The position numbers were made by a program, and so were the translations under genes. A model generated the notes under the pieces. The model searched no databases. It was not told the origin of the DNA and saw only the letters and a list, made by a program, of their open reading frames with translations. Below, piece by piece: positions 32,415 to 37,528 of a DNA stretch of 64,000 nucleotides. Each line of letters opens with the position of its first letter. The first letter of the stretch is position 1. Location: the NCBI RefSeq assembly GCF_900566075.1, contig NZ_UPHU01000001.1, forward strand, positions 4,898,325 through 4,962,324, written 5' to 3'. Source of the stretch: Mycobacterium pseudokansasii. Lineage in GTDB: Bacteria > Actinomycetota > Actinomycetes > Mycobacteriales > Mycobacteriaceae.

Positions 32415-32486
32415 GAAAATGCCTTCTGGCCTGGGATAATACGAGTGCTGAAGTCGTCTTTTTCCAGTGTTCAGGAAGGCATTTTC
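32415..32486 (+). promoter_or_regulatory. Transposase promoter inside a hairpin that hides its ribosome site
   Basis: GAAAATGCCTT (32415-32425) is the exact complement of AAGGCATTTTC (32476-32486), which covers most of the transposase ribosome-binding site AGGAAGG (32473-32479). Between the arms lies an extended -10-like TGGGATAAT (32432-32440). RNA started there would lack the left arm and leave the ribosome site free, whereas RNA entering from kdpD would fold and hide it. This arrangement is known to limit transposase synthesis in other IS elements; here it is inference. Confidence 0.55.
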
Positions 32487-32487
32487 G

Positions 32488-33888
32488 GTGCATTCATCGT
32501 ATACGTTCACTCTCGGGTCGGCGGTGTTTGACGAGCCGAATCTGGTGTCGGCCGCGGGTTTGGTTCCGGTGCTGGAATTGGCTGAGCAGACCGGGCTTTC
32601 GGAATTGATCGGTGAGCATGTGGATCTGCCGTCGACACGGGTGGCCTCCGGTGCGGTCAACCCGGTCGGGAAGCTGACCTCGATCATCGCCGGGATGATG
32701 TGCGGCGCGGACTGCATCGACGACGTCGACGTGTTGCGTGCCGGCGGCACGCCACGGGTGTTCAACGAGGTGTATGCGCCCTCGACATTGGGGATCTTCT
32801 TGCGCGAGTTCACTTTCGGGCATGCCAACCAGCTCGCGGCCGTGGCTCGCGCGCATCTGGTGGCGCTCGCGCAGCGGGTGCCGCTGTTGCCCGGCATCGA
32901 AGAGCGCGCCTTTTTGGACATCGACTCGCTGCTGCGTCCGGTCTACGGGCGCCATAAGCAGGGTGCTTCGTTCGGGCACGCCAAGATCGCCAGCCGTGCG
33001 CTGCTGCGGTTGGGTCTGTCGCCGCAGATCACCACGATCTCGACCGCGCAGGCCCCACCGGTGATCGCCGAGGCGCGGCTGCGCAGCGGTAAGGCCGGCT
33101 CCGGCCGCGCCGCGGCCTGGCAGGTCAAACAAGCCATCACCACCGCCCGCGGGTGCGGGGCCGGCAAGATCATGCTGCGCGGCGACACCGCGTTCGGCAA
33201 TAAAAAGGTGATCGGCGCCTGCATCGCCGAAGGCGTCGAGTTCTCCCTGTCGATGACCCGAAATCGGGCCATTACCACCGCGGTCGAGGGCATCGACGAG
33301 GCCGCCTACACCCCGGTGCACTACCCGGGCGCGGTCGAAGACCCTGACACCGGGGCGCTGATCTCCGATGCCGAGGTCGCCGAAACTCCCTACACCCTAC
33401 GGCTGGGGCGGGGCAAGAAGATCACGGCCCGACTGGTAGTGCGCCGGGTCAAAGACGCCCGCTACCCGGATGCGTTGTTTCCGGTGTGGCGCTATCACCC
33501 ATTTCTGACCAACTCCGAGCTGCCCACTGCCGAGGCCGACATCACCCACCGCCGCCACGCCATCATCGAGACCACCTTCGCCGACCTGATCGATGGCCCA
33601 CTGGCTCGGATCCCTTCAGGGCTGTTCGCCGCGAACTGCGCCTGGTTGGCCTGCGCGGTGATCGCCCATAACCTGCTGCGCGCCACCGGGACCCTCGCCG
33701 GCGGTCACCACATCGTGGCCCGCGGTGCCACCCTGCGCCGCGACCTGGTCAACGTGCCCGCCCGCTTCGCCGCACCGGCCCGCAAACCGATGCTGCACCT
33801 ACCCGTCCACTGGCCCCGACAAGTCGAGTGGAAAGCCCTGTGGGACAGCGTCATCGGCTACCCGACTGCGCAACCCCGCGCCGCTTGA
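32488..33888 (+). CDS. IS1380-family transposase
   Basis: A 466-residue DDE transposase. The GTG at 32488 follows AGGAAGG by 8 bases and gives the usual short lead into GSAVFDEPNLVSAAGLVPVLELAEQTGL. Catalytic region signs are AFLDIDSLLRPVYG, MLRGDTAFGNKKVI and, near the C-terminus, HRRHAIIETTFADLIDG, fitting D-D-E positions. It ends within the element 171 bp before the right end. No frameshift is seen, so it should be active. Confidence 0.9.
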   Translation: MHSSYTFTLGSAVFDEPNLVSAAGLVPVLELAEQTGLSELIGEHVDLPSTRVASGAVNPVGKLTSIIAGMMCGADCIDDVDVLRAGGTPRVFNEVYAPSTLGIFLREFTFGHANQLAAVARAHLVALAQRVPLLPGIEERAFLDIDSLLRPVYGRHKQGASFGHAKIASRALLRLGLSPQITTISTAQAPPVIAEARLRSGKAGSGRAAAWQVKQAITTARGCGAGKIMLRGDTAFGNKKVIGACIAEGVEFSLSMTRNRAITTAVEGIDEAAYTPVHYPGAVEDPDTGALISDAEVAETPYTLRLGRGKKITARLVVRRVKDARYPDALFPVWRYHPFLTNSELPTAEADITHRRHAIIETTFADLIDGPLARIPSGLFAANCAWLACAVIAHNLLRATGTLAGGHHIVARGATLRRDLVNVPARFAAPARKPMLHLPVHWPRQVEWKALWDSVIGYPTAQPRAA

Positions 33889-36000: not shown

Positions 36001-36677
36001 CCCGTGTGTTGGTGGTCGACGACGAGCCGCACATCCTGCGGGCGCTGCGCATCAATCTGACCGTGCGCGGCTATGAGGTGATCACCGCCTCGACCGGCGC
36101 CGGTGCGCTGCGCGCCGCCGCCGAACACCCGCCCGACGTGGTGATCCTCGACCTCGGCCTGCCCGACATCTCGGGGATCGACGTGCTGGCCGGTCTCCGC
36201 GGTTGGCTGTCAGCGCCGGTGATCGTGTTGTCGGCGCGCACCGATTCCTCCGACAAGGTCGAGGCCCTGGATGCGGGCGCCGACGACTACGTCACGAAAC
36301 CCTTCGGGATGGACGAGTTTCTGGCCAGGCTGCGCGCGGCGGTGCGCCGCAACGCCGCGGCGTCGGAGGTGGATCAGCCGGTTGTCGAAACCGACGCGTT
36401 CACCGTCGATTTGGCCGCGAAGAAGGTCACCAAGAACGGCGTCGAAGTGCATCTGACCCCGACCGAATGGGGCATGCTCGAGGTCCTGGTCCGTAACCGG
36501 GGCAAGCTGGTCGGCCGCGAAGAGCTGCTCAAGGAGGTCTGGGGACCCGCGTACGCCACCGAAACCCATTACCTGCGGGTGTACCTGGCGCAGCTGCGGC
36601 GCAAACTGGAAGACGACCCGTCACACCCCGAGCACCTGCTGACCGAGTCCGGAATGGGTTATCGCTTCGAGGCCTGA
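35997..36677 (+). CDS. kdpE: Response regulator KdpE
   Basis: A 226-residue OmpR-type regulator (the length remembered for Rv1027c). It has the acidic pair in VLVVDDEPHIL, phosphoacceptor Asp in VILDLGLPD, Lys in YVTKPFGMDEF, and a C-terminal winged helix with TPTEWGMLEVLVRNRG and ETHYLRVYLAQLRRKLE. The ATG at 35997 overlaps the kdpD stop. KdpE activates kdpFABC when phosphorylated by KdpD. Intact here, it depends on whatever kinase activity the split KdpD keeps. Confidence 0.94.
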   Translation: MTRVLVVDDEPHILRALRINLTVRGYEVITASTGAGALRAAAEHPPDVVILDLGLPDISGIDVLAGLRGWLSAPVIVLSARTDSSDKVEALDAGADDYVTKPFGMDEFLARLRAAVRRNAAASEVDQPVVETDAFTVDLAAKKVTKNGVEVHLTPTEWGMLEVLVRNRGKLVGREELLKEVWGPAYATETHYLRVYLAQLRRKLEDDPSHPEHLLTESGMGYRFEA

Positions 36678-36925
36678 TCCCAGCTGCCACAGGAGTCACT
36701 GGTTGCGGGGGATGCTCTTTTTGCCCACCTCACTCGGAAATTCATGGTGATCACGAATGCGACTGGTCAACGATGTCTTCTTCCGTAGCCTTGGATGCCT
36801 GGCTCTGGGCACACCTTGGCTCTGTTTTCGGCACGCCGATACCGCACCTTCGCTCAAACCGCTTGTGATGGCAGGCAATCGGGGGATGTCGCACGTGCTC
36901 ACCGTATCGGCAGTCATGGGCGTCG

Positions 36926-37049
36926 TATCGAGTGTGCGGTGACGCCTTTGACTGTGCATCGAGGGCGGGAACGTCCACGATCGACCGCCCGGACGGCACA
37001 GTCGGCGCCGCCACCGCACACTCGGTGCCATCGGCGCACACTCGGTGCC
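36926..37049. repeat. 20-bp repeats in head-to-head arrangement
   Basis: Plus-strand units: TATCGAGTGTGCGGTGACGC (36926-36945) and CTTTGACTGTGCATCGAGGG (36946-36965). After a 25-bp centre, minus-strand units at 36991-37009, 37010-37029 and 37030-37049 read GGCACCGAGTGTGCG-type sequence. The period is 20 bp and the core GAGTGTG or GACTGTG is shared with the array near 49.0 kb. The inverted halves could form a long imperfect hairpin. Confidence 0.7.
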
Positions 37050-37120
37050 TTCAGCCACCGACCCAACCGCACCAGCACGCGATTTCCCTCTCCCACACCG
37101 GGGCACAGCCCCACAACCGC

Positions 37121-37423
37121 TCACGGCGACTTCGCCGGTGCCCGGGCCGAGGCCCGCAACGCCAGCACGCGTCGATGAATCCGGTGTTCGGTGGCTCGCG
37201 GGATGTACGACGGGCCGCACCGACCCCGGCCGAGCGGGCGAACCCGGCCGCGTGCAATCTCCCAGCGCAACGCGTCCGAGACGGCCTTGGATGCCCTGCC
37301 ACACAAGGAAAATCCGTGCCAGGCAAGCGCATCGAGCATTTCAGCGATCCTCGCCGGTCCGTGTTGGGACAACTGCATGGTCAGCACGTAGCGGAGCTCG
37401 ATTCCGCGAAGCATGGTGTGCAT
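37121..37423 (-). CDS. 100-residue putative winged-helix protein inside the inverted-repeat unit
   Basis: From the ATG at 37423 the protein opens MHTMLRGIELRYVLTMQLSQ and continues ARIAEMLDALAWHGFSL, ASKAVSDALRWEIARGRVR, LGRGRCGPSYIPRATEHRIH. The pattern (helix, helix, SDALRWE recognition-type helix, basic GRGRYGP-like wing) looks like a small winged-helix DNA-binding protein. I have the impression that similar proteins recur in mycobacterial genomes, but cannot name the family. There is no clear ribosome site. It is the only gene-like frame in the 791-bp unit. Confidence 0.6.
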   Translation of the reverse strand: MHTMLRGIELRYVLTMQLSQHGPARIAEMLDALAWHGFSLCGRASKAVSDALRWEIARGRVRPLGRGRCGPSYIPRATEHRIHRRVLALRASARAPAKSP

Positions 37424-37528
37424 TGCCGAAGCGTCGCATGCCGGTATGACATCGGCCGGAGTTGTCGCTATTAGGTGGGCAAAAAGAGCACCCCCCTGTT
37501 GCCTAGCGGCTCCTGCGACAGATGTGAC

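Follow-up and report, generated by a model that had tools for sequence, protein, structure and literature searches.

According to excerpts of the two papers, a RAYT gene invariably has two REPs in inverted orientation at its sides (Nunvar et al. 2010, PMC2817692), and the inverted doublet is argued to be the moving unit, with the RAYT as a single-copy gene (Bertels and Rainey 2011, PMC3116915). MPME1 of mycobacteriophages is presented in excerpted reports (PMC3029335, PMC4351075) as an ultra-small element of ~440 bp with inverted ends and one ~120-aa protein that is not a known transposase. The excerpted text of a review of small bacterial repeats (PMC2229807) does not mention mycobacteria. 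Among the matches listed in open-licence PMC papers, the letters of the core sequence described below gave no evident link to mycobacterial repeats, and searches combining REPIN or RAYT with mycobacteria gave nothing relevant; searches for mycobacterial miniature or repetitive elements likewise listed nothing on the gene-arm family analyzed here, an earlier description elsewhere being possible.

The window, a 64,000-nucleotide stretch of the Mycobacterium pseudokansasii genome, carries a small gene framed by inverted arms between kdpE and ppx2. On balance, we lean towards reading this locus as a single copy of an element that is spread genus-wide in mycobacteria and functions in the manner of a RAYT/REPIN pair, the protein likely binding the core of the arms and pairs of arms spreading. 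As in the excerpted accounts of RAYT/REPIN systems, a gene that is usually single-copy has an inverted repeat on each side, the genome contains scattered doublets of this repeat, inverted and gene-free, as well as singlets, and the downstream repeat often follows immediately after the gene. In contrast to those systems, the protein is a stand-alone winged helix, and none of 73 family members matches the Y1 transposase family PF01797 (Pfam, E ≤ 0.1). The half-unit is ~65 nt long with two conserved blocks, whereas the REP is described in the excerpts as a 20–40-nt imperfect palindrome with a GTAG head. A single half-unit folds unreliably (five tested, z from -1.8 to +1.7), with no GTAG or CGTC tag seen by eye, and the idea that the arms are self-folding REP hairpins was found unconvincing. 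No genome has more than 69 cores, and all loci shown (80 of the 211 found) belong to Mycobacteriaceae. Because the defining Y1 domain is missing, we describe the family as working like RAYT/REPIN and do not class it as such.

MPME1 shares the very small size, the inverted ends and the single protein that is not a known transposase, but its protein is unrelated (hhalign probability 0.2; an MPME relation was rejected for the protein), and MPME1 resides in phages, whereas the family described here has no match in phage or plasmid records, nor in viral contigs. MITEs are likewise short non-coding units with inverted ends, present several times per genome and, in two of the genomes considered here, homologous over most of their length; unlike MITEs, the same arms here also frame a gene, whose product is not a recognized transposase, and no target duplication was seen. 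The family also differs from classical insertion sequences, as no transposase family was matched by any of the 73 members in Pfam or NCBIfam (E ≤ 0.1), a search in which a protein this short could be missed.

The unit between kdpE and ppx2

In the window, kdpE and ppx2 are convergent, with stop codons at 36675–36677 and from 37529, respectively, and the 851-bp gap between them is filled completely by the unit, which extends from outer box to outer box at 36678–37528 (no strand assigned) and includes a 395-bp nested insert. The 24-nt inverted repeat singled out as near-perfect in the preliminary description (36707–36730 and 37473–37496, 96% complementary) is confirmed. By eye, it is the middle of two longer, diverged, imperfect inverted arms reaching from stop codon to stop codon, and the edges originally assigned, 36707 and 37497, move outwards to about 36678 and 37528. 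The pentamer GTTGC, previously taken for a flanking duplication, is present at 36702–36706 and 37498–37502, the right copy lying one base off the repeat; because both copies are inside the longer arms, the pentamer is not a target-site duplication.

The kdpE-side arm (36678–36730, + strand) starts with a diverged outer box, TCCCAGCTGCCACA, followed by the 24-bp repeat, which ends in the first half of the core, TGCCCACCT. The second half of this interrupted core, GCGACTT (37126–37132, + strand), overlaps the 3′ end of the gene. The ppx2-side arm (37462–37528, - strand, core to outer box) contains an intact core, TGCCCACCTAATAGCGACAA (37462–37481, - strand), and an outer box that reads GTCACATCTGTC from the ppx2 stop codon. 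No Rfam match was found. Units abut stop codons both here (36677 and 37529) and in the locus L090 (near -9274). A transposase gene of the DDE_Tnp_1_4 type is located at 32467–33888 (+ strand), ~3 kb from the unit.

Around kdpE homologs, 30 loci were fetched and 16 examined, and the gap to ppx2 was computed in four genomes. It measures 851 bp in the window, 807 bp in genome G017, where the gene is present, 25 bp in G015 and 1,366 bp in G006, the latter two being gene-less and the G006 gap having other content. G015 is the empty site that the preliminary description had proposed to look for, though not a base-exact one, with protein-level identities of 95% (kdpE) and 80% (ppx2). The recurrence of the ends, also proposed there, holds for the degenerate core, which is found 13 times in the window's genome (control, 0) and recurs in other genomes, but not for the exact 18-bp inner ends, which have two exact matches in the window's genome, at this locus only, and three with three mismatches (control, six).

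The 395-bp stretch at 36731–37125 (+ strand), set in the core of the kdpE-side arm, has related copies in the window's genome, M. innocens, M. ostraviense and M. gastri. In M. innocens and M. gastri, the downstream arm directly follows the gene, whereas in the window the 395 bp separate the two halves of the core. Nine related stretches were displayed besides the window. All seven with a readable left end start right after the first half of the core, the remaining two (one from M. ostraviense, one from M. gastri) being partial at the left, and the second half of the core is at the right end in six of the nine. The insertion point in the kansasii group (L275, L330, L290, L324, L116 and L080) is the core NNN (TGCCCRSCT / AGCGACA), which indicates that this repeat targets another repeat family, namely the cores of the gene-arm family. 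Since one repeat targets the core of another, there would be a hierarchy of repeats. Some insertion sequences, e.g., ISPpu9, are described as targeting REPs in the excerpted text of PMC8450116; the nested repeat in the window resembles them in sitting within repeats, here the cores of the gene-arm family, and, unlike them, contains no transposase gene. As 395 bp of the 791-bp piece are a separate nested repeat, the unit that had been read as a single element is composite. The internal cluster of 20-bp repeats reported from it is weak (the pair is 75% alike, and no such repeat is listed by Tandem Repeats Finder, run at score 30) and belongs to the nested repeat.

The window copy looks decayed. 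Within the kansasii group, dN/dS is 0.46–0.64 in three pairs, on few changes, residue 69 of the protein is Cys where Tyr is nearly invariant elsewhere, and the core is split, all of which point to decay. A segment with GTTGACTCACTNAAAG directly adjoins the core start in dispersed units from the window's genome (L291 at 840; L292 at 997, - strand; similarly in L290) and is perhaps another insert at cores.

The gene, its protein and its arms across the genus

The gene family was found in 179 of the 296 congeneric Mycobacterium genomes sampled, 117 being without the gene, whereas 24 genomes from other genera in the order all lack it. Multi-copy occurrence, a possibility raised earlier, applies to 26 of the 179 gene-bearing genomes, which have two or three matches, some perhaps fragments; the other 153 have a single match. 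By neighboring genes, 101 loci (8 duplicates included) fall into 26 site clusters, with 47 loci at kdpE–ppx2. In the protein tree, which is based on few columns and leaves many forks unresolved, sites are clustered, and L088, L090 and L093 lie at other sites yet inside kdpE-site clades.

The ~65-bp arm consists of an outer box, GTCACATCNGCCACA, and an inner core, TGCCCGCCTNNNAGCGACAA, and two arms are inverted around one gene. In most other loci, the core TGCCCGCCTCNNAGCGACA is inverted around the gene; the upstream core often lies near -58, and the downstream one right where the gene ends. After removal of the 8 duplicates, cores inverted on both sides of the gene were found in 68 of 93 loci, compared to 0 of 458 control places, so the linkage of the protein gene to the ends that had been suggested as a check is present. 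In 11 of the 93 loci, inverted pairs are found upstream of the gene only; in the siteB group, they likewise lie upstream and not around it. Among the 14 loci with neither layout are those of the window and of its sisters M. gastri, M. innocens and M. ostraviense, where arms are decayed or interrupted, and four of the 14 are within 150 bp of a contig end. The counts of 68 of 93 versus 0 of 458, together with the empty site in G015, rule out ordinary intergenic DNA with a chance inverted repeat, a reading in favor of which nothing was found and to which we give practically no credence.

In an alignment inspected by eye, homology between relocated units and those at the kdpE site extends from GTCACA to TGTGAC and not beyond; therefore, this stretch is the unit. 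Inspected by eye, L088, L090 and L097, and L090 compared with L097, show no evident target-site duplication, the sites available for comparison being less than base-exact. At L170, the flanking genes of the relatives are too rearranged for an empty site. Tandem arrays of arms occur in L120, L091, L101 and L139, direct upstream and mostly inverted downstream, with periods of ~84–142 bp; L120, from an M. asiaticum genome, carries an upstream array of five direct copies spaced by 85 bp. In several species (loci including L081, L090 and L095), the downstream core supplies the gene's own last codons and stop (KLSL-stop). In L046, the frame of the small gene is open through the downstream array into another ORF (553 aa), which by eye we take to resemble a naphthoate synthase.

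In the window, the gene (37121–37423, - strand) has 100 codons, with its stop codon within the nested insert; family members are ~95 aa long. The window protein is a predicted winged helix (mean pLDDT 93.4), so the assignment made in the preliminary description stands, and it has relatives elsewhere in the genus. In its third helix, K46 and S49–E55 are invariant in 73 proteins, which would fit a conserved DNA target. Values of dN/dS of 0.04–0.15 in seven pairs not both of the kansasii group (some with saturated dS) suggest purifying selection on the gene. No convincing Pfam or NCBIfam family was found for the 73 members, the commonest Pfam match being DUF3489 (13 of 73, best E 0.00096), and no catalytic domain or residue set was recognized. 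A sequence search found no solved structure, and Foldseek against PDB and viral models gave none at E ≤ 0.001; the fold comes closest to those of Pex and of MarR-, PadR- and ArsR-type repressors. A conserved block, TGTCNTACCGGTNTGCGA, perhaps a promoter or operator, is found ~30–10 nt before the start codon in L090, L096, L111 and others.

Gene-free units

Cores with up to one mismatch are scattered over gene-bearing genomes, with 48 in G017, 39 in G010 and 29 in G029, compared to 0 or 1 for reversed-pattern controls. We fetched 59 such places: 20 in G029 (those listed, except the gene), 20 chosen in G017 and 19 in M. innocens, a choice that favored pairs. Among them are 48 inverted pairs with a median spacer of 19 nt, one divergent pair and 11 single-core loci. 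Of the 108 half-units, 96 carry the outer box, which was found at 18 of 816 random control positions. Twelve copies in G029 and nine in M. innocens align along most of their length, spacers included. These homologous spacers imply that whole units were duplicated there, rather than a binding site having evolved repeatedly. By contrast, no conserved spacer sequence is apparent among 33 half-units from G017. One single half-unit, at an ORF end in L090, is missing from the relative L097.

Unit positions are hardly shared between species: no cross pairs were found between G029 and G017 and one each between G029 and G332 and between G017 and G332. The sister pair G332 and G000 shares two, not counting a further one that the nested insert created. 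Over a 52–80 kb stretch in three kansasii-group genomes, units are mostly common or rearranged, without clean insertion polymorphisms.

The protein could instead be a conserved regulator of transcription that uses the dispersed inverted cores as operators, with nothing moving. The repressor-type winged-helix fold, purifying selection on the gene, the unconserved spacers of G017 and the inverted pairs themselves, whose 19-nt median spacer is a plausible operator layout, are all consistent with such a role. Nevertheless, operators have no need of the homology that spacers and outer arms show among copies in G029 and M. innocens and that is expected of unit duplication. The near lack of positions common to different species, the occurrence of the gene itself at many sites together with its arms and the fact that 68 of 93 loci have an arm on the downstream side as well also argue against a pure regulator, which we consider distinctly unlikely.

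Sequence comparison shows that arms and gene recur as a unit at many sites and that gene-free arms are dispersed as inverted pairs, more of them in gene-bearing genomes. The earlier suggestion of a small element possibly driven by its own protein of ~100 residues is upheld as far as the gene with inverted arms at many sites and the same arms without a gene are concerned; the protein's part in it is a prediction. In the RAYT/REPIN-like reading that we prefer, the protein would most likely bind the core, and arm pairs would reach new places by copying, in the form of short palindromic units, either via host enzymes or through an unrecognized catalytic ability of the protein; the gene-bearing unit itself would relocate only rarely. 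Points against this reading are that no catalytic domain was recognized and no target-site duplication seen, the unconserved spacers of G017 and the upstream pairs of the siteB group. A stronger version of this reading, that a ~95-aa stand-alone winged helix alone suffices to spread palindromic units, would make the family a minimal system and a new mode of moving DNA, independent of RAYTs and present in most Mycobacterium species; we offer it tentatively and think it rather less probable than its opposite. The family accounts for a set of dispersed palindromes in mycobacterial chromosomes, to which it ties a gene found in 179 of the 296 sampled genomes and devoid of a convincing Pfam or NCBIfam assignment. 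If the protein drives the spread, the RAYT/REPIN arrangement would have been arrived at a second time by unrelated means, and the persistence of such pairs would be testable with a very small protein.

Unit number and candidate drivers

Gene-bearing genomes have a mean of 9.6 cores, with ten or more in 57 of 179, compared to a mean of 2.3 in gene-less genomes, with ten or more in 6 of 117 (Mann-Whitney p 6e-16, which overstates the difference, as the counts include gene-adjacent cores and the genomes are related). The 13 degenerate cores of the window's genome compare with 0 to 3 in seven gene-less genomes, and M. innocens has 64. Several gene-less genomes are nevertheless core-rich (45 in G074, 21 in G001, 16 in G124 and 13 in G122), which might reflect recent gene loss or another driver; a search of 10 such genomes for a divergent version of the gene gave nothing convincing at E ≤ 10 (best E 0.012). 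Conversely, 30 of the 179 gene-bearing genomes have no core within one mismatch, where cores may perhaps simply differ.

MatP with matS, and SlmA, are chromosome-organizing proteins with scattered binding sites, and tens of sites around the chromosome in some genomes would suit a protein of that sort. However, core numbers vary between 0 and 69 across the 296 genomes of this single genus, 117 of which are without the gene, and an organizing role is highly improbable.

An ordinary transposase might also move both the gene unit and the dispersed units in trans as passengers (MITEs), with the protein as cargo or as a repressor of the unit. The protein has a repressor-type fold, gene-less genomes can carry many units, and in G029 (L162–L177) some units are embedded in a longer repeat of ~250 bp that has separate ends, CTAG..CGCTGCTGAT, and resembles an ordinary MITE. 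A Y1 transposase, the sole family searched for, is present in 4 of 11 genomes, among them the window's (contig 2) and the unit-rich G029, but is missing from the unit-rich G017, G010, G036 and G001, and was rejected as the driver in trans. Passenger status also leaves the association of unit number with the small gene unexplained, and we hold it to be unlikely, if less so than the regulator.

A match between gene arms and dispersed arms within a genome was also sought. Outside the core, none of three genomes has dispersed units whose nearest relatives are its own gene arms, which counts against the RAYT/REPIN-like reading. In the core tails, counted by hand, six of eight dispersed cores end in TT in M. 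canariasense, whose gene arms read ...GACTT, compared to 2 of 63 in M. innocens, whose gene arms read ...GACAA; this agreement, from two genomes of ten searched, is suggestive only.
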